Of a stretch of DNA of 43,226 bases, positions 35,973 through 43,226 are shown piece after piece. The DNA is taken from positions 1 through 43,226 of IMG/VR virus record IMGVR_UViG_3300045918_000106. One strand, written 5' to 3'. Below the pieces are notes generated by a model. It worked only from the letters and a program-made list of their open reading frames with translations. It searched no databases and was not told where the DNA came from. This DNA comes from a virus. Position 1 is the stretch's first letter; each line of letters opens with the position of its first letter. Both the position numbers and the translations under genes were made by a program.

Positions 35973-36443
35973 TTAATTAGACCCTATTAACTTACTAATA
36001 AGAGAAGAGTATTTTGTCTCTCCTCCGAATTCATTTAGTTGTACATTTGTTTGGTGTTTAGGAGAGTTGCCTTGTCTTACCTTTTCTAGTGATATTTGTC
36101 TATCTAAGACTTCCATAGTCATTTTATGAGATAAGGCTAGTAGATCCGCTATATCCTTACCGGATCCCACGTCTGCTTCGTCTAATTCTTGCAGTTTTTT
36201 CTGGATTATAGTATCCATTACATTTCTAATACGGAATCTATTATTAAATCCCACATCTAAGAAAATATGGTCTATATAAGAACGTACTTCTTTTCTATCT
36301 AAAGTTTCTGACACTTGGTCGGCAGGAATCCCTAATTTATTAGCTGCTTCAGTTACTGACTGTGTCTCCAAGTAAGCATTTGCTATTTCTAAGGCTTCTG
36401 GGGAGATTGTGAGAGAATGGGCGGGGGAGACTATTGGTAGCAT
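35973..36443 (-). CDS. terS: Terminase small subunit
   Basis: The product is 156 residues. Residues ~13-50 (ISPEALEIANAYLETQSVTEAANKLGIPADQVSETLDRKEVRSYI) form a helix-turn-helix for DNA recognition. The central helices (FRIRNVMDTIIQKKLQELDEADVGSGKDIADLLALSHKMTMEVLDRQISLEKVRQG) fit the oligomerisation region, and the tail ends SSLISKLIGSN. It is the first gene after the divergent control region. Its leader is only ~20 bases and has no clear Shine-Dalgarno site. It is assumed to bind the packaging start site, possibly in the adjacent repeats. Confidence 0.82.
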   Translation of the reverse strand: MLPIVSPAHSLTISPEALEIANAYLETQSVTEAANKLGIPADQVSETLDRKEVRSYIDHIFLDVGFNNRFRIRNVMDTIIQKKLQELDEADVGSGKDIADLLALSHKMTMEVLDRQISLEKVRQGNSPKHQTNVQLNEFGGETKYSSLISKLIGSN

Positions 36444-36471
36444 GGTTTTATAAAATTATTTCAGAATACAT

Positions 36472-36500
36472 ATTATAACATAAGGGGAACTTAAAATCAA
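36472..36500 (-). promoter_or_regulatory. Sigma-70 promoter for the packaging genes
   Basis: On the minus strand, TTGATT (36495-36500) and TATAAT (36472-36477) are separated by 17 bp. It lacks the ATTTTTATCC block of the other minus-strand promoters. Confidence 0.8.
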
Positions 36501-36510
36501 GTTCAAATTT

Positions 36511-36719
36511 ATGGAACTTTATGGAACTTTATGCATACTGTCGCACCTTAGCTTACCTCTCTTTTTATTAATATTTTTTTCCTGGGTGTGGGCCCACAGG
36601 CTTATGAAAAATTGACTGTCTGATAACCCCCTAGGGTCGTGTGCATTTTACACACAACCCTAGTAGTCTATACTTTTTAGCCTAAACTGGTTAGTCTATA
36701 CTTTTTAGCCTAAACTGGT
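36511..36719. repeat. Non-coding repeat block between terS and the early genes
   Basis: It contains two tandem ATGGAACTTT units (36511-36530), the 12-bp palindrome TGTGGGCCCACA (36587-36598), a stem-loop with 13-bp arms and one mismatch (CTAGGGTCGTGTG at 36631-36643 with 36651-36663), and two exact tandem 28-bp units (36664-36691 and 36692-36719). No gene is visible in 36444-36875. Confidence 0.85.
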
Positions 36720-36776
36720 TAGTTAATAATACTTGAGTAATTTGTAGGGTAATCGACATATTTATTAAAATAAATG

Positions 36777-36804
36777 TTGCTTTCCTGGATGATTACTGTA
36801 TAAT
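36777..36804 (+). promoter_or_regulatory. Promoter for the first HTH gene
   Basis: TTGCTT (36777-36782) and TATAAT (36799-36804) are separated by 16 bp. The spacer begins in a TTTCCTGG site. Other plus-strand promoters share the -35 and the 16-bp spacing. Confidence 0.8.
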
Positions 36805-36811
36805 GATTTCA

Positions 36812-36843
36812 CTGGATGACGAAATGAGCGCAACGAAATCCAG
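36812..36843 (+). ncRNA. Conserved leader RNA element, copy 1
   Basis: CTGGAT and ATCCAG form a stem around a 20-base loop with two ACGAA motifs. The loop is almost the same as at 40850-40886, while the stem there has a different sequence that still pairs. It lies in the 5' leader, 32 bp before the ATG. Confidence 0.65.
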
Positions 36844-36875
36844 ATACCCTAACCCGCGTTCATTAGGAAAATATC

Positions 36876-37283
36876 ATGAATAAAATACTCGACTATACCT
36901 CTCTTGACTATACTGTTAATGGTGCTGCCTATGTTATGGCTGCAACCGCTAAGACTCCTAACTATACAGAAGAACAGACTTCTACTATGGTAGCTGCCTA
37001 TCTTGCTAATCCTACTCAAGAGACTGTAGCTATGCTTTCTAGCACTATGGCACGCTCTGTTCGTTCTATCGTGGCTAAATTAAGCCGTGAGAAGGTTTAT
37101 GTAAGCAAGATTTATGTCACTAAGACAGGTGAGGCCATTATTAAAAAAGAGACTCAAGCCGATATGATTGGTGATCTTCTTGATCTTACTGAAGCTGATA
37201 CTTCTAGTTTGAGCAAAGCTAATAAGACTGCCTTGGCTAAGGTATTGGAAGCGGTACAAGCATATAACTGCCTGATTAAATAA
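36876..37283 (+). CDS. Small helix-turn-helix protein, paralogue 1
   Basis: The product is 135 residues with AGGAAAA before the ATG. Residues ~30-78 (YTEEQTSTMVAAYLANPTQETVAMLSSTMARSVRSIVAKLSREKVY) look like a helix-turn-helix, with RSVRSIVAKLSRE as the recognition helix. A small C-terminal helical domain follows (MIGDLLDLTEADTSSLSKANKTALAKVLEAV). Two other genes in this window (40914, 42906) encode the same domain pair. A 178-bp core is 97% identical to the 40914 gene. A DNA-binding regulator acting on the repeated intergenic elements is plausible; this is inference. Confidence 0.75.
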   Translation: MNKILDYTSLDYTVNGAAYVMAATAKTPNYTEEQTSTMVAAYLANPTQETVAMLSSTMARSVRSIVAKLSREKVYVSKIYVTKTGEAIIKKETQADMIGDLLDLTEADTSSLSKANKTALAKVLEAVQAYNCLIK

Positions 37284-37303
37284 CGTGCTTAATTAACTAA
37301 CAT

Positions 37304-37328
37304 AAACAGGGTACCTTATACCCTGTTT
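37304..37328 (+). terminator. Hairpin after the first HTH gene
   Basis: Arms AAACAGGGTA and TACCCTGTTT enclose a 5-base loop. No T-run follows; instead the AAGGGGG ribosome site of the next small gene is adjacent. It may be a weak terminator or a structure that affects that site. Confidence 0.5.
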
Positions 37329-37342
37329 ATAAGGGGGTTGAA

Positions 37343-37480
37343 ATGAGATACTTAATATTAAGAGCTATAGACTTTAATTCTAACTCTCCATGCGATGCCT
37401 TGTTTATTGGTACTTTTGAACAATGTAACCAACAGGCGAGGCGCTGGCTTGAAATGGATATTATAATTAAACCTTATTAA
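37343..37480 (+). CDS. Small hypothetical protein
   Basis: The product is 45 residues, MRYLILRAIDFNSNSPCDALFIG..., ending EMDIIIKPY, with AAGGGGG before the ATG. The middle (FIGTFEQCNQQARRWLEMD) looks like a short amphipathic helix, and there is no membrane segment. It probably shares a transcript with the next membrane peptide, 11 bp downstream. I do not recognise the family. Confidence 0.6.
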   Translation: MRYLILRAIDFNSNSPCDALFIGTFEQCNQQARRWLEMDIIIKPY

Positions 37481-37491
37481 GAAGGACTATT

Positions 37492-37575
37492 ATGCTTACT
37501 ATTTTTATTAAAGGAATGCTTTACTTTATCTTTGTTATCTTTATTGCTTCCTTGCTTGCCTACTTGGTAAGGTAG
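37492..37575 (+). CDS. Tiny membrane peptide
   Basis: The product is 27 residues, MLTIFIKGMLYFIFVIFIASLLAYLVR. It is nearly one hydrophobic helix with Lys and Arg at the ends and has a GAAGGA ribosome site. It ends just before cassette A. The role is unknown; similar tiny single-span peptides occur twice more in this module (38014, 41558). Confidence 0.6.
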   Translation: MLTIFIKGMLYFIFVIFIASLLAYLVR

Positions 37576-37641
37576 AAAAAGCCCTTATAAAATAAGGGCT
37601 TGGCTGCGCCAATTTTATCATAGCCCGCTATGACTTGTCAA
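37576..37641 (-). ncRNA. Cassette A: minus-strand promoter plus terminator (predicted tiny RNA)
   Basis: On the minus strand, TTGACA (37636-37641) is followed after 18 bp by TAAAAT (37612-37617) with an extended TGA. About 10-15 bases later comes a hairpin (AAGCCCTTAT with ATAAGGGCTT, 37579-37601) and a T-run. The predicted transcript is about 30 bases, near 37576-37605. Confidence 0.55.
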
Positions 37642-37728
37642 GCATTTTTTGTAAATAAATATCTTGCTTTCCTGGCCGATTTATGCTTTTAAATAAAAAA
37701 GTATTTCCTGGCCTATATAAAATAATGC

Positions 37729-37777
37729 TTGCTTTTTATTTTAAGAGGGGTATAATTACTCCATCAACTAGAGGAGT
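37729..37777 (+). promoter_or_regulatory. Cassette A plus-strand promoter with start-site dyad
   Basis: TTGCTT (37729-37734), 16 bp, TATAAT (37751-37756). The dyad ACTCC-N10-GGAGT at 37758-37777 spans the expected start site and an AGGAG ribosome-site sequence. The same block occurs at 38316 and 39191. Confidence 0.8.
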
Positions 37778-37840
37778 TCTATAAACTTCTTAAAAATGAA
37801 GCAATTATTTCTATGTTAAAAAGGTTAAGGGATAACTAAA

Positions 37841-38014
37841 ATGATTAAAATAAATATGGTGTGCCTTGCAACAGGTAAAGAAGTTATGGTACTGGATAGG
37901 GTAGCCAGTATTATCGACTCTAAAAAAATTGTTAGGCATCTTAATAACATGAATAAACATACTGCCCTTGCTATGGGTAAGGCTATAACCTTTTATTTCA
38001 AGGTAATTAAATAA
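37841..38014 (+). CDS. Small hypothetical protein
   Basis: The product is 57 residues, MIKINMVCLATGKEVMVLDRVASIID..., then KKIVRHLNNMNKHTALAMGKAITFYFKVIK, with AAGGG upstream. It is predicted as a mixed beta/helix domain with a basic C-terminal half. The 85-base region between the start-site dyad and this ATG holds only a seven-codon frame. The stop shares a base with the next start (TAATG). Family not recognised. Confidence 0.6.
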   Translation: MIKINMVCLATGKEVMVLDRVASIIDSKKIVRHLNNMNKHTALAMGKAITFYFKVIK

Positions 38015-38109
38015 TGGATAATTTATTCTTGCTTCTTTTTGCCCTTGTACTTTTATTTATTACCCCTAATATTTGTGACATAATTCATTCATTAACTGAT
38101 AAAGATTAA
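38014..38109 (+). CDS. Tiny membrane peptide
   Basis: The product is 31 residues, MDNLFLLLFALVLLFITPNICDIIHSLTDKD. It has a hydrophobic helix (~4-20) and a polar tail. The ATG overlaps the preceding stop, so it is translationally coupled. It ends before cassette B. Role unknown. Confidence 0.6.
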   Translation: MDNLFLLLFALVLLFITPNICDIIHSLTDKD

Positions 38110-38111
38110 CT

Positions 38112-38178
38112 AAAAAAGTCCTTATAAAATAAGGACTTAGCTGCGCCAATTTTATCATAGCCCGCTATGACTTGTCAA
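38112..38178 (-). ncRNA. Cassette B: minus-strand promoter plus terminator (predicted tiny RNA)
   Basis: On the minus strand, TTGACA (38173-38178), 18 bp, TGA-TAAAAT (38149-38154). The hairpin AAGTCCTTAT/ATAAGGACTT (38116-38138) and T-run follow. Compared with cassette A one stem pair changes from C-G to T-A on both arms, keeping the pairing. Confidence 0.55.
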
Positions 38179-38286
38179 GCATTTTTTGTAAATAAATATC
38201 TTGCTTTCCTGGATGATTTATGCTTTAAAATAAACGATAATACTTGACTATCCCAAGGGGTCTTTCCTGGGCAATATAAAAAATGC

Positions 38287-38335
38287 TTGCTTTTTATTTT
38301 AAGGGGGGTATAATTACTCCATCAACTATAGGAGT
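38287..38335 (+). promoter_or_regulatory. Cassette B plus-strand promoter with start-site dyad
   Basis: TTGCTT (38287-38292), 16 bp, TATAAT (38309-38314). The dyad ACTCC-N10-GGAGT is at 38316-38335 and its right arm overlaps the Shine-Dalgarno sequence of the GTG start at 38344. Confidence 0.82.
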
Positions 38336-38343
38336 AATACAAA

Positions 38344-38562
38344 GTGATTAAGGTTATAGGATGGATTGGAACATTTTGCGGCATATTAGGCAGCATTTCT
38401 CTTGCTACTAAATTTTACCCTGCTATAGGTTATGCTTCCTTCTTACTAGGTAGTATGGCTTGCCTGTATATTGCCTTAATAAACAAAGATAAGGCAAATA
38501 TTACTTTATGGGGTTTTTTCTTTTGTATCAATATACTAGGGGTATATAATTATGCGATTTAA
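38344..38562 (+). CDS. Small three-segment membrane protein
   Basis: It starts at GTG with AGGAG nine bases upstream, giving 72 residues. Three hydrophobic segments are seen: ~3-20 (KVIGWIGTFCGILGSISLA), ~27-46 (AIGYASFLLGSMACLYIALI) and ~52-70 (NITLWGFFFCINILGVYNYA). The pattern WIGT..G......AT..YP..GY..FL..S..... I.....W.F......GV..Y is seen in small phage and bacterial inner-membrane proteins of unknown function. The end overlaps the SprT-like gene by 11 bp, so the two are probably co-translated. Confidence 0.7.
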   Translation: MIKVIGWIGTFCGILGSISLATKFYPAIGYASFLLGSMACLYIALINKDKANITLWGFFFCINILGVYNYAI

Positions 38563-38941
38563 TTCTATAATAGAAGCTCAAGTTTACCTTGACGACTCGG
38601 TAAAATTATGGTGGAATAAGGCTTATTCTATTTGGGGGAATAAAATAGGGGTGTGTCCTCCTGTTAAATTTAATAAAAGACTAACCAAAACAGCTGGACG
38701 TGCTTTTATGCTTATTCCTAAAAATGCTATCAATTTTCCTTATATGAAGGAAGAAATTGACTTCAGCCTAAAATTGTTTATGGATAATGTAGAAAATTAT
38801 CATACTAATATTATTCCACATGAGTTAGCTCATTTTATAGCTTTTCGGGTATATTCTGAAACTAACCACGGTATGCCTTGGAAAAAAGTTTGTCAAATGT
38901 TAGGCTGTTCTAATGCCAGATGTCATAATATGCTTTGTTAA
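38552..38941 (+). CDS. SprT-like zinc metalloprotease, short form
   Basis: The product is 129 residues. IIPHELAHFIAFRVYSETNHGMPWKKVCQMLG contains HExxH at 90-94 and the third ligand His106, the arrangement of SprT-like proteases. The upstream strands (GRAFMLIPKNAINFP) fit the fold. The C-terminal zinc ribbon is reduced to CSNARCHNMLC. Family members cleave DNA-bound proteins in eukaryotes (SPRTN); in phages the role is not established. It overlaps the membrane protein gene upstream and is followed by a terminator. Confidence 0.82.
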   Translation: MRFNSIIEAQVYLDDSVKLWWNKAYSIWGNKIGVCPPVKFNKRLTKTAGRAFMLIPKNAINFPYMKEEIDFSLKLFMDNVENYHTNIIPHELAHFIAFRVYSETNHGMPWKKVCQMLGCSNARCHNMLC

Positions 38942-38943
38942 TT

Positions 38944-39136
38944 AAATCAATAACTTACCTAAGCCTGCATAAGCAGGCTTTTTTACGTTTAAAATTAAAG
39001 ACTTAGCCGCGCCAATTTTATCACATAAAATTGGCTGCTGTCAAGCATTTTTTGTAAATAAATATGTTGCTTTCCTGGATGATTTATGCTTTAAAATAAA
39101 CGATAATACTTGAATATCTCAAGGGGTCTTTCCTGG
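38944..39136. repeat. Cassette C, near-identical to cassette D
   Basis: Bases 38944-39136 match 40505-40697 (offset 1561) with two differences seen, both in the terminator loop. It holds the terminator, an 11-bp inverted repeat (39011-39035), a minus-strand promoter (TTGACA 39039-39044, 18 bp, TAAAAT 39015-39020) and two TTTCCTGG sites. Confidence 0.92.
38961..38984 (+). terminator. Terminator after the first SprT-like gene
   Basis: Arms AAGCCTGC and GCAGGCTT flank an ATAA loop, followed by TTTT. The same hairpin with the loop inverted (TTAT) occurs at 40522. Confidence 0.88.
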
Positions 39137-39161
39137 TACTAAAAATAAATTGAAATAATAC

Positions 39162-39210
39162 TTGCTTTTTATTTTAAGGTAGGTATAATTACTCCATCAA
39201 TTACAGGAGT
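39162..39210 (+). promoter_or_regulatory. Cassette C plus-strand promoter with start-site dyad
   Basis: TTGCTT (39162-39167), 16 bp, TATAAT (39184-39189), with ACTCC-N10-GGAGT at 39191-39210. It drives the HAD gene at 39219. Confidence 0.82.
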
Positions 39211-40505: not shown

Positions 40506-40697
40506 AATCAATAACTTACCTAAGCCTGCTTATGCAGGCTTTTTTACGTTTAAAATTAAAGACTTAGCCGCGCCAATTTTATCACATAAAATTGGCTGCT
40601 GTCAAGCATTTTTTGTAAATAAATATGTTGCTTTCCTGGATGATTTATGCTTTAAAATAAACGATAATACTTGAATATCTCAAGGGGTCTTTCCTGG
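40505..40697. repeat. Cassette D
   Basis: This is the second copy of cassette C. It includes the 11-bp inverted repeat (40572-40596), the minus-strand promoter (TTGACA 40600-40605, TAAAAT 40576-40581), and TTTCCTGG at 40632-40639 and 40690-40697. Confidence 0.92.
40522..40545 (+). terminator. Terminator after the exonuclease gene
   Basis: Arms AAGCCTGC and GCAGGCTT with loop TTAT, followed by TTTT. Confidence 0.88.
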
Positions 40698-40713
40698 GCA
40701 ATATAAAAAATAC

Positions 40714-40828
40714 TTGCTTTTTATTTTAAGGGGGGTATAATAGATTCTGTTGGATGTAGCAAGCAAAGCAAAAAAGAGTTAAAAAAGTTTTAAAAAATGC
40801 TTGCATAATGTTTTATATACTGTATAAT
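40714..40828 (+). promoter_or_regulatory. Tandem promoters for the second HTH gene
   Basis: P1 is TTGCTT (40714-40719), 16 bp, TATAAT (40736-40741). P2 is TTGCAT (40801-40806), 16 bp, TATAAT (40823-40828). The 25-bp sequence around each -10 and start site is duplicated exactly (40735-40759 and 40822-40846). Confidence 0.8.
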
Positions 40829-40913: not shown

Positions 40914-41285
40914 ATGACTAAAAATACTTCTTTTGTTTCTGCCGTATCCACAACCCCTAAGGCTCCTAACTATACAGAGGAACAGACTTCTACTATGGTA
41001 GCTACCTATCTTGCTAATCCTACTCAAGAGACTGTAACTATGCTTTCTATCACTATGGCACGCTCTGTTCGTTCTATCGTGGCTAAATTAAGCCGTGAGA
41101 AGGTTTATGTAAGCAAGATTTATGTCACTAAGACGGGTGAAAAGGTTGAAAAGAAAGATTCAACGGCTACCGCAATAGGCAGTATATTGAGTCTAAGCGA
41201 AAATGATACTTCAAGCCTTGCTAAAGCTAATAAAACTGCCCTTCAAGCTATTTTTAATGCGCTGGCTAACTCTAAGCCGTTGTAA
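40914..41285 (+). CDS. Small helix-turn-helix protein, paralogue 2
   Basis: The product is 123 residues. NYTEEQTSTMVATYLANPTQETVTMLSITMARSVRSIVAKLSREKVYVSKIYVTKTGE is almost the same as in paralogue 1. The N-terminus and the C-terminal half (AIGSILSLSENDTSSLAKANKTALQAIFNAL) are more diverged but clearly related. AAGGTG lies upstream of the ATG. It has tandem promoters and the conserved leader element. A DNA-binding regulator is likely. The near identity of the core suggests recent duplication or gene conversion. Confidence 0.75.
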   Translation: MTKNTSFVSAVSTTPKAPNYTEEQTSTMVATYLANPTQETVTMLSITMARSVRSIVAKLSREKVYVSKIYVTKTGEKVEKKDSTATAIGSILSLSENDTSSLAKANKTALQAIFNALANSKPL

Positions 41286-41353
41286 TTAAAAAAGTTTCCT
41301 AGGTTCTTTATAAAAACCTAGATTAACCCTTGATTTTATAGGAGAATTTAAAA

Positions 41354-41542
41354 ATGAAAAAAGCTTTTGTTAATACCGATAAATTGAGTAAAATCAATAC
41401 TTTCCGCGCATCTCAAGGTCTTGAATTGATTGTCCCTAAAAAGACTGCTGACAAAAAACAACAAAGGGCTAATAGATCCGCACATTCTGAAAAGTGTCGT
41501 GAAATCAAAGCCTTACGCACTTCCGGCAAAAAATCTAAATAA
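41354..41542 (+). CDS. Small basic protein
   Basis: The product is 62 residues with AGGAG before the ATG. It begins MKKAFVNTDKLSKINTFRASQGLELIVPKK and continues with a Lys/Arg-rich helix (KKQQRANRSAHSEKCREIKALRTSGKKSK). The pattern 'KLSKIN..R...GLE.......K......NR......R.IKALR' recurs in small phage and bacterial proteins of unknown function. A nucleic-acid-binding role is suggested by charge only. A 7-bp hairpin (41299-41321) precedes it, using the CCTAG sequence of the leader element. Confidence 0.65.
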   Translation: MKKAFVNTDKLSKINTFRASQGLELIVPKKTADKKQQRANRSAHSEKCREIKALRTSGKKSK

Positions 41543-41557
41543 ATCAAGGGGCTATAA

Positions 41558-41653
41558 ATGTACTCAACTAAATCAAAGACTGTTCCTATGCTAGTGGCTC
41601 TAAGTTCTTGTTTATTCTATATTTTTTTCGCGGTAATTCATGCGATTAGTTAA
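41558..41653 (+). CDS. Tiny membrane peptide
   Basis: The product is 31 residues, MYSTKSKTVPMLVALSSCLFYIFFAVIHAIS, with AAGGGG before the ATG. A short basic N-terminus precedes one hydrophobic helix (~10-30), so the N-terminus is predicted to be cytoplasmic. It is followed directly by a strong hairpin. Role unknown. Confidence 0.6.
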   Translation: MYSTKSKTVPMLVALSSCLFYIFFAVIHAIS

Positions 41654-41663
41654 TATTTAATTT

Positions 41664-41698
41664 AAATATTAAGCCCGCTTTATGCGGGCTTAATATTT
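41664..41698. terminator. Strong 15-bp hairpin ending the second HTH operon
   Basis: Arms AAATATTAAGCCCGC and GCGGGCTTAATATTT enclose a 5-base loop. A/T-rich ends on both sides could act as the T-run in either direction. Confidence 0.8.
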
Positions 41699-41716
41699 AA
41701 TTACCAGGATACAAAA

Positions 41717-41809
41717 ATAAAAAAGTCTTTAAAATCAAAGACTTAGCTGCGCCGCGTGGGCAAGCCTTTCCATATTTATCATTTTACTCGTGTATGTGCA
41801 AGATGTCAA
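41717..41809 (-). ncRNA. Cassette F: minus-strand promoter plus terminator (predicted small RNA)
   Basis: On the minus strand, TTGACA (41804-41809), 17 bp, TAAAAT (41781-41786). The conserved GGCGCAGCTAAG motif, hairpin AAGTCTTT/AAAGACTT (41723-41744) and T-run follow. The predicted transcript is about 55-60 bases. Confidence 0.6.
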
Positions 41810-41859
41810 GTTTTATTTTCTGGCACGACTTTTGCTTTCAAGCAAGAATTATGCCATCT

Positions 41860-41979
41860 AGCGAAGTAAACACTTACTAACCCAGCGAAGTAAACACTTA
41901 CTAACCCAGCGAAGTAAACACTTACTAACCCAGCAAAGTGAGCACTTACTAACCCAGCAAAGTGAGCACTTACTAACCT
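41860..41979. repeat. Five 24-bp iterons
   Basis: There are five tandem units of the form AGCGAAGTAAACACTTACTAACCC. Units 1-3 share GCGAAGTAAACAC; units 4-5 have GCAAAGTGAGCAC. Each contains a small dyad (AGTAA...TTACT or AAGTG..CACTT). Confidence 0.93.
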
Positions 41980-41986
41980 ACTATAA

Positions 41987-42006
41987 AGGCGCGCTTAAGC
42001 GCGCCT
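41987..42006. other. 20-bp perfect palindrome
   Basis: AGGCGCGCTTAAGCGCGCCT is self-complementary throughout and stands out as G+C-rich in A/T-rich DNA, next to the iterons. Confidence 0.9.
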
Positions 42007-42297
42007 AGTGCGCAATCTAGAATTTCCGGATGTGCTCTACGAAACCTAGTGCGCAATCTAGAATTTTCTAAAGTCTATTCTAATTGTACCAATTCGCGCA
42101 ATTCCCCAACCCAGGATTCAAATTAGGGGAATTCGCGCACTTTGGTACATATTCCAACATATTTCAATATTTTAGTACAATTATGGGTATTTAGAGACAT
42201 TAGGCTGAAAAATTGACAAAGTTTGGGAGTTAATTTGTCGAGTTGGCAAAGTTAGATAGGAGAATTGACAAAGTTTGGAAGTTAATTTGTCGAGTTG
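42004..42297. repeat. Nested direct and inverted repeats, candidate origin region
   Basis: A 22-bp direct repeat lies at 42004-42025 and 42045-42066 (CCTAGTGCGCAATCTAGAAT...). A nested inverted repeat spans 42085-42149 (TGTACCAA...AATTCCCC...GGGGAATT...TTGGTACA). A 35-bp direct repeat with one mismatch lies at 42211-42245 and 42263-42297, each with GACAAA...TTTGTC. No gene is convincing in 41654-42442. Confidence 0.88.
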
Positions 42298-42388
42298 CGC
42301 TGACTAGTGCATAGTACAATTTCTAACTCGCTAAATTATATGCCTTTTCGAACCGCTTATTTACCAAATAAGGAGAATAAATATTCTA

Positions 42389-42417
42389 TTGAAAAATTTT
42401 TGAGAAATCTGTATAAT
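42389..42417 (+). promoter_or_regulatory. Promoter for the second SprT-like gene
   Basis: TTGAAA (42389-42394), 17 bp, TATAAT (42412-42417), about 25 bp before the ATG at 42443. Confidence 0.78.
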
Positions 42418-42442
42418 TATAAAATCGAAAAGGGAGAAAGAA

Positions 42443-42859
42443 ATGACACAGTTAGAAGCGGCAAGATTTTACGGAGATTACAGGGAATTGATAGAAGAAA
42501 TCAATGAACTTGATGTACAAGAAAATACCAAGCTACAGGAGACCCTAATGAAAGAGTATGAGTTAAATAAAATTTTCTGTATTTTCTTAAGCGAATTTAG
42601 TCTGGAATGGCGCACTCGTATAGGGGTGGCTAAAGGGAAGAAAGACTGGATGGGAATGTACGAAGAATATCCTTTTAGTAAAAAACATAAAATTAGGGTA
42701 TGCCTAGAACAGTGTAAGGACTATGATGCTGTAGTAGCTACTATAGTACATGAAATGGTTCATGCATGGCAAAATGAAACAGGACATAGTGTAGCACACG
42801 GTAAAAGCTTTAAGAAGTGGAAAGTGTACTTTAAACAAAGATATGGATTAAAAATTTAG
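42443..42859 (+). CDS. SprT-like zinc metalloprotease, second type
   Basis: The product is 138 residues with AGGGAGAAAG before the ATG. ATIVHEMVHAWQNETGHSVAHGKSFKKWKVYF holds HExxH at 103-107 and a further His119 in AHG..F, the standard SprT/wss1-type ligand set. The N-terminal third is helical and charged. There is no zinc ribbon. It is only distantly like the 38552 protein, so the phage carries two separate genes of this type. It has its own promoter beside the repeat-rich region. The substrate is unknown. Confidence 0.82.
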   Translation: MTQLEAARFYGDYRELIEEINELDVQENTKLQETLMKEYELNKIFCIFLSEFSLEWRTRIGVAKGKKDWMGMYEEYPFSKKHKIRVCLEQCKDYDAVVATIVHEMVHAWQNETGHSVAHGKSFKKWKVYFKQRYGLKI

Positions 42860-42861
42860 TG

Positions 42862-42890
42862 TTGATTTACAACTGATTTGCTAGTATAAT
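42862..42890 (+). promoter_or_regulatory. Promoter for the third HTH gene
   Basis: TTGATT (42862-42867), 17 bp, TATAAT (42885-42890). The leader is very short and has no conserved RNA element. Confidence 0.8.
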
Positions 42891-42905
42891 ATATTGGAGA
42901 ATATA

Positions 42906-43202
42906 ATGAACAAAGTAACTTCTTACACCGCTGAACAAACTGCAACTATCGTAGAAGCTTTTAAAGCTGGTACTCCTATTGAAGTTATTGCAACTACTGT
43001 AGGCAAAAGCGCTCGTAGTGTAATCGCTAAGCTTTCTCGTGAAGGCGTATATACTAAGGCCAACAAAACTACCACTACTGCAACTAAAGTAACTAAGGCT
43101 GATCTAGTAGCTAAGATTGCTATAAAATTCAATGTAACTACCGAATCTTTGGCTAATCTTGTAAAAGTTGATAAAGCTACTTTGGAAATCATAGCAGCTT
43201 GA
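42906..43202 (+). CDS. Small helix-turn-helix protein, paralogue 3
   Basis: The ATG at 42906 has GGAG well placed; an in-frame TTG at 42894 lies too close to the -10. The product is 98 residues. SYTAEQTATIVEAFKAGTPIEVIATTVGKSARSVIAKLSREGVYTKANK aligns with the other two paralogues through the helix-turn-helix. The C-terminal domain (TKADLVAKIAIKFNVTTESLANLVKVDKATLEIIAA) matches the same short helical domain. DNA identity to the others is low, so this is the older branch. A regulatory DNA-binding role is inferred. Confidence 0.75.
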   Translation: MNKVTSYTAEQTATIVEAFKAGTPIEVIATTVGKSARSVIAKLSREGVYTKANKTTTTATKVTKADLVAKIAIKFNVTTESLANLVKVDKATLEIIAA

Positions 43203-43226
43203 CCCTAGTCCCTCACTTACGCAGTA

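Follow-up and report, generated by a model that had tools for sequence, protein, structure and literature searches.

The stretch of DNA analysed here (the window) is a virus record of 43,226 bases that carries no end repeats and represents a T5-like phage of bacteria, as its terminase large subunit is closest to those of T5-like phages, with 46% identity to that of Pectobacterium phage My1. Structural genes are found on the minus strand as far as the small terminase (35973-36443), and small genes follow on the plus strand from 36876. The repeat block that is the subject of this work sits within a non-coding gap (41542-42443), for which the first-pass annotation's view that no convincing gene is present was borne out, and the contig stops 1.2 kb downstream of its array of iterons. 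The gene run upstream of the gap ends in an inverted repeat (Table 1) that appears terminator-like by eye and was unflagged in our terminator scan, while the downstream genes are preceded by a sigma-70-like promoter, a kind of match whose count in the block region shows no excess over shuffled sequence. The same early region contains other duplicated elements as well. D5-like HTH paralogues occur three times, at 36876-37283 and at the two positions listed in Table 1 (relatives also have several), and a SprT-like metallopeptidase gene at 38552-38941 accompanies the one that borders the block. An intergenic module made of a terminator-like stem, a TGCGCCAATTTTATCACATAAAATTGGC palindrome and a GCTTTCCTGG motif, most copies of which also possess a TTGCTT-TATAAT promoter-like end, is repeated at 37590-37800, 38120-38330, 38980-39200, 40510-40760 and 41710-41830, and 2.1 copies of a 28-bp repeat, TAGTCTATACTTTTTAGCCTAAACTGGT, lie between the terminase and the early genes (36664-36723). 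A separate IMG/VR contig, IMGVR_UViG_3300045747_000119 (L105), is 100% identical to window positions 36401-39136 over 2,736 bases, and comes from the same virus or a very close one.

Upon re-measurement of the block, the five 24-bp iterons described earlier were found to form a tandem array (TRF match 96%, score 196) in which units 1-3 read AGCGAAGTAAACACTTACTAACCC and units 4-5 read AGCAAAGTGAGCACTTACTAACCC/T. The two subtypes, said in the first-pass annotation to keep a small dyad, do differ within a dyad, with units 4-5 restoring AAGTGAGCACTT, and relatives having the full 20-bp dyad. The perfect 20-bp palindrome and the 22-bp direct repeat, CCTAGTGCGCAATCTAGAATTT, were also confirmed. Two elements had to be corrected: the 65-bp nested inverted repeat exists but is imperfect, as its 23-nt arms are 74% complementary, and the direct repeat believed to be 35 bp long is in fact a 46-nt repeat whose copies, at 42200 and 42252, are 87% identical. 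In place of the latter, relatives carry a different direct-repeat family. The overall description of the block as a dense control region that acts in cis and whose iterons are dyads holds. The block had no Rfam match over threshold and no BLAST match among isolate phages.

Table 1. Features of the repeat block and its surroundings in the window.
Feature	Position	Strand	Basis or remark
D5-like HTH paralogue gene, upstream	40914..41285	+	Homologue borders the array in relative G004
Inverted repeat	41662..41700	.	17-nt arms, 5-nt loop; ends upstream gene run
Whole array, 5 x 24 bp	41860..41979	+	TRF; start-to-start spacing exactly 24
Candidate SlmA-type site 1, CGAAGTAAACACTTACTAAC, weak	41862..41881	+	Profile score 10.7; 16/20 identical to E. 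coli SBS12
Candidate SlmA-type site 2, sequence as site 1	41886..41905	+	Profile, repeat search
Candidate SlmA-type site 3, sequence as site 1	41910..41929	+	Profile, repeat search
Candidate SlmA-type site 4, CAAAGTGAGCACTTACTAAC	41934..41953	+	Profile score 19.0; 15/20 identical to SBScons, also to SBS12
Candidate SlmA-type site 5, sequence as site 4	41958..41977	+	Profile, repeat search
Perfect 20-bp palindrome, AGGCGCGCTTAAGCGCGCCT	41987..42006	.	Sequence check
22-bp direct repeat, two exact copies (42004-42025, 42045-42066)	42004..42066	+	Repeat search
Imperfect inverted repeat, arms 42085-42107 / 42127-42149	42085..42149	.	Arm complementarity
Two 46-nt direct repeats (87%), TTGACAAAG...TTTGTCGA type	42200..42297	+	Repeat search
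Sigma-70-like promoter, TTGAAA-17-TATAAT	42389..42417	+	Precedes downstream genes
SprT-like metallopeptidase gene, downstream	42443..42859	+	Gene annotation
D5-like transcriptional regulator gene (phrog_323)	42894..43202	+	Homologue is the first conserved gene past the array in relatives

Further array-bearing contigs were retrieved by searching for the core of the iterons as a pattern. One of them, G004, is a T5-like phage whose gene order is conserved and most of whose matched proteins are approximately 45-65% identical to those of the window. Its array is flanked by the homologue of the gene at 40914 and by that of the D5-like gene at 42894, and so lies in the same interval as in the window; this also holds for the close relatives of G004, namely G005, G008, G017 and G019. 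The first unit begins with CTAGCGAAGT in these relatives and in the window alike; past this unit, every copy in the relatives is a 20-bp dyad without mismatch, for example GTTAGTGAGCACTTACTAAC, and the spacing is 28 bp as opposed to the 24 bp seen in the window. Dyads were thus retained while linkers and spacing diverged. The first-pass annotation had named absence of the block from close relatives as something that would speak against its candidate origin; the array is syntenic in the relatives above, and is absent from other T5-like relatives.

The dyad is also found well beyond this lineage. Its pattern in the relatives, GTTAGTRAGYRCTYACTAAC, matched at least 120 stretches in IMG/VR, where the reversed control pattern matched none, and 25 stretches in a 257 Gb genome collection. 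In several unrelated phage groups it forms clustered arrays of 2-6 sites, plus singletons, and part of the first-scan matches (L003-L022) are isolated dyads, some perhaps due to chance. Grouping the loci by shared proteins yielded seven groups and 17 singletons. Almost all exact sites (105/108) fall outside ORFs of at least 100 aa, 30 of the 54 arrays that could be placed are in divergent gaps, and a single cluster per genome is present in most of the larger records searched. Genes next to the arrays vary between groups; in one large group the arrays are near the small terminase gene (TerS), many of them close upstream of it, and a search for a common neighbouring gene returned terminases and family-specific genes only. 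Spacing between sites is not fixed across lineages (24, 28, 29, 37 and other values), and a pooled signal of helical phasing (p ~7e-6) was owed to related loci, as the unique spacings gave a p of 0.40.

The core of this dyad equals the binding site of SlmA, a nucleoid-occlusion factor of the TetR family for which a ChIP consensus, GTGAGTACTCAC, has been reported (PMC3116907), together with an in vitro consensus site for the E. coli protein, SBScons (AAGTAAGTGAGCGCTCACTTACGT; PMC4423959, PMC7468209), and chromosomal sites such as SBS12 (CGCGAAGTGAACGCTAACTCACTG) and SBS17 (TCAACGTTAGTGACCATTTACTTACTTTTG; PMC4423959). The dyad fits both GTGAGTACTCAC and SBScons, the latter matching the 20-bp consensus of the relatives at 18/20 positions, and the chromosomal SBSs of E. 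coli and V. cholerae have the same dyad core, GTRAGYRCTYAC, as the phage sites. When scored with a profile built from phage sites, from which four T5-like loci were left out and in which the remaining T5-like arrays were unused, SBScons reached 30.2, which is within the training range (training median 31.9) and was equalled by none of 200,000 random palindromes. The ChIP consensus gave P=2.7e-4 against this profile, and SBS17 and SBS12 scored 14.1 and 5.4, respectively; reversed genomic sequence gave a maximum of 4.7 over 213,581 positions, and 2.8 Mb of reversed loci contained no match above 8. The top five matches to the profile in the whole window are the five iterons (Table 1). They are degenerate in comparison with the units of the relatives, which score 34, and lie far over background and under most phage sites. 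Identity between the window units and E. coli SBSs is 15-16/20, units 1-3 having the left half CGAAGT in common with SBS12, and because the best match in shuffled windows is 15/20, the case for the window units as SlmA sites comes from the family they belong to and not from direct identity.

A link to SlmA is also suggested by bacterial genomes. Among 150 Pseudomonadota genomes the number of GTRAGYRCTYAC sites tracks the presence of a strong slmA gene (Mann-Whitney p=1e-7; p=0.14 for the control pattern), with 65 sites versus 42 for the control in the genomes with strong slmA (n=18) and 49 versus 214 in those where slmA is absent (n=122). Two candidate hosts, which pertain to relatives and not to the window phage itself, are slmA-positive. 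One is G033, a betaproteobacterial MAG with a motif-bearing phage contig, for which the site count was corrected accordingly; the other is G095, whose PstS is 76% identical to that of the G005 phage (next best 64%). The SlmA proteins of both share RITTA..SEAALYRHF, the recognition helix, with that of E. coli. The phage PstS, a phosphate-binding protein, is encoded at L113:3-731 (approximately 59.7-60.7 kb in G005). In the slmA-positive relatives of G033 the 14-bp core was not enriched over the control with strict patterns, but the real E. coli sites SBS12 and SBS17 also miss these patterns, and hence this null result is weak evidence both ways. No full dyad was returned by BLAST of 50,697 isolate phage records, even though many of these phages infect slmA-positive bacteria, and the core was absent from the whole records of the annotated sequences closest to the terminases of groups 1 and 2.

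SlmA bound to DNA, as two dimers on each site, brings about the disassembly of FtsZ (PMC4423959), and two SBSs in tandem on a multicopy plasmid were reported to spread active SlmA in E. coli and to cause a lethal, SlmA-dependent division block, which required SlmA at about 4 times the native level (PMC3573117, PMC4117426). As tandem SlmA sites on such a plasmid block Z-ring assembly, we propose that a replicating phage could stop division in the same manner, and we consider it somewhat probable that the five iterons of the window are tandem candidate binding sites for host SlmA through which replicating phage DNA would block division. Judging from sequence, SlmA very probably binds the arrays; that the phage delocalises SlmA and thereby halts division is proposed by analogy with the plasmids. 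Host SlmA would load two dimers on each 20-bp dyad, and once bound to array DNA it would disassemble FtsZ filaments; since each replicated copy of the genome would add several sites, active SlmA-DNA complexes would become dispersed through the cell, off the chromosome, and Z-ring assembly would be blocked. The division inhibitor would be the DNA itself, with no phage protein required. The same kind of array in many unrelated uncultured phages suggests that they may use their own DNA against host division. The wider reading, in which the arrays of diverse uncultured phages hijack the nucleoid-occlusion protein and the phage genome, as a nucleoid mimic, turns division off without a phage gene product, is plausible, and we put it forward more tentatively. 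We infer that SlmA occupies the arrays during infection, and that the outcome is a division block and not titration or transcription control; this outcome is preferred because the SBS plasmid has its natural equivalent in a phage that replicates with several sites on each genome.

Transcription control would mean that host SlmA, by itself or along with a phage factor, activates or represses neighbouring promoters at an early/late gene hub. The intergenic location of the arrays, often in divergent gaps and in many cases close upstream of TerS, would agree with such a role, as would the T5-like arrangement, in which the array is followed by a promoter-like site and by the gene of a D5-like regulator, and SlmA is indeed known to act in transcription at the V. 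cholerae chb promoter (PMC5519180). We regard this role as rather unlikely, however, as lineages vary widely in how the sites are spaced and in how far away the next gene lies, neighbouring genes are not the same from one lineage to another, and E. coli SlmA is not known to regulate genes (PMC3116907). The evidence for the sites themselves would be identical if the array served to titrate SlmA off the chromosome, or to keep septa at a distance from the compartment where the phage replicates, with no global block. E. coli has 24-52 sites and, with 300-400 SlmA per cell (PMC4423959) or about 500 dimers per nucleoid (PMC3573117), only some ten times as much of the protein, a supply that the sites of replicating arrays could exceed. 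Nonetheless, such a sponge or shield seems to us quite unlikely, given that SlmA is active when bound to DNA, which means that relocation would activate and not remove it, and that in E. coli the delocalised protein has an inhibitory effect (PMC4117426).

It is unlikely as well that the dyads are operators of a different protein, either a host repressor of the TetR type or an unrecognised phage protein. TetR-type operators can resemble one another, similar dyads are found in actinobacterial genomes and Rhizobium phages, and the lack of core enrichment in the G033 relatives would fit; on the other hand, the core tracks slmA across genomes, SBScons fits the phage profile, and the arrays of unrelated phages have no neighbouring gene in common outside families. 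A phage-encoded TetR-type regulator was rejected as the binder, as a TetR_N domain over cut-off was found in 0/48 motif-bearing records, many of which are fragments, and the simplest binder for unrelated phages to have in common is a protein of the host. As for the origin of replication with initiator-bound iterons envisaged by the first-pass annotation, a palindrome, direct repeats and dense repeats do occur together in one non-coding gap, and relatives carry further repeat families beside the array. DnaA boxes are absent at 41000-43226, however, and GC skew, by which the proposal was to be judged, changes near 36.5 kb, at the point where the genes switch strand, with no extreme at the block. 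The variable phasing of the iterons across lineages, the T5-like phages devoid of an array and the different genes that the same dyad adjoins in unrelated phages also argue against an origin, and no initiator gene was seen among the genes examined near the array, on a contig that ends shortly downstream. An origin that uses the iterons thus received no positive support and is very improbable, whereas the remaining repeats (41987-42297) could still belong to one.

Similar dyads also occur where another binder may be at work, which speaks against the SlmA reading. Eight dispersed single dyads with the core AGTAAGYRCTTACT are distributed around the genome of a Rhizobium phage (RHph_X66, W02; L294), which has ParA/ParB-like genes, a layout unlike that of the clustered arrays; to our knowledge, alphaproteobacteria do not have SlmA. 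In actinobacterial (Asanoa) genomes (L127, L129, L138), similar dyads form short arrays with a spacing of about 26 bp, and are perhaps operators of another TetR-type protein.

In spite of the common core, chromosomal SBSs are dispersed single sites, mostly inside genes in E. coli and excluded from Ter, whereas the phage sites are tandem, intergenic, usually confined to one cluster per genome and often near-optimal. Plasmids pHC534 and p2SBSK, with their two tandem SBSs, are multicopy non-chromosomal DNA, as a phage genome would be during replication, but are engineered and needed the elevated SlmA mentioned above for a lethal block. With lambda Kil, DicB and DicF the likeness lies in the proposed outcome, as Z rings would be lost during phage growth; these inhibitors, and the phage blocks of host division that we found in the literature, work through peptides, proteins or RNA, while the inhibitor proposed here would be a site on DNA to which a protein of the host is recruited. 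Searches of the open-access literature brought up no description of phage-borne SlmA sites. The injection stop signal (iss) and terminal repeat of T5 are likewise a repeat-rich non-coding block near T5-like early genes, but the T5 ends have no SBS-type dyad and the whole of T5 lacks the 14-bp core. With no dyad in common, the iss was set aside as an explanation; as regards a position at the end of the pre-early terminal repeat, only a dmp-like gene upstream of the window array was seen. If our proposal of a division block is true, a DNA-only SlmA route could act on genome entry and scale with phage replication, which would explain the motif common to unrelated phages and provide a testable link from nucleoid occlusion to infection; it would also allow an slmA-positive host range to be predicted from phage DNA alone, and make natural near-optimal SlmA sites available for biochemistry.

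One further element was seen close to some of the arrays. The window has no Fur-box-like sequence upstream of its array, unlike several T5-like relatives: in L006, L007, L010 (L010:1628), L019, L021 and L161 the array is immediately preceded by a perfect Fur-box-like sequence of the 7-1-7 type, TGAGAATNATTCTCA, which may be another site for a host regulator within the block.
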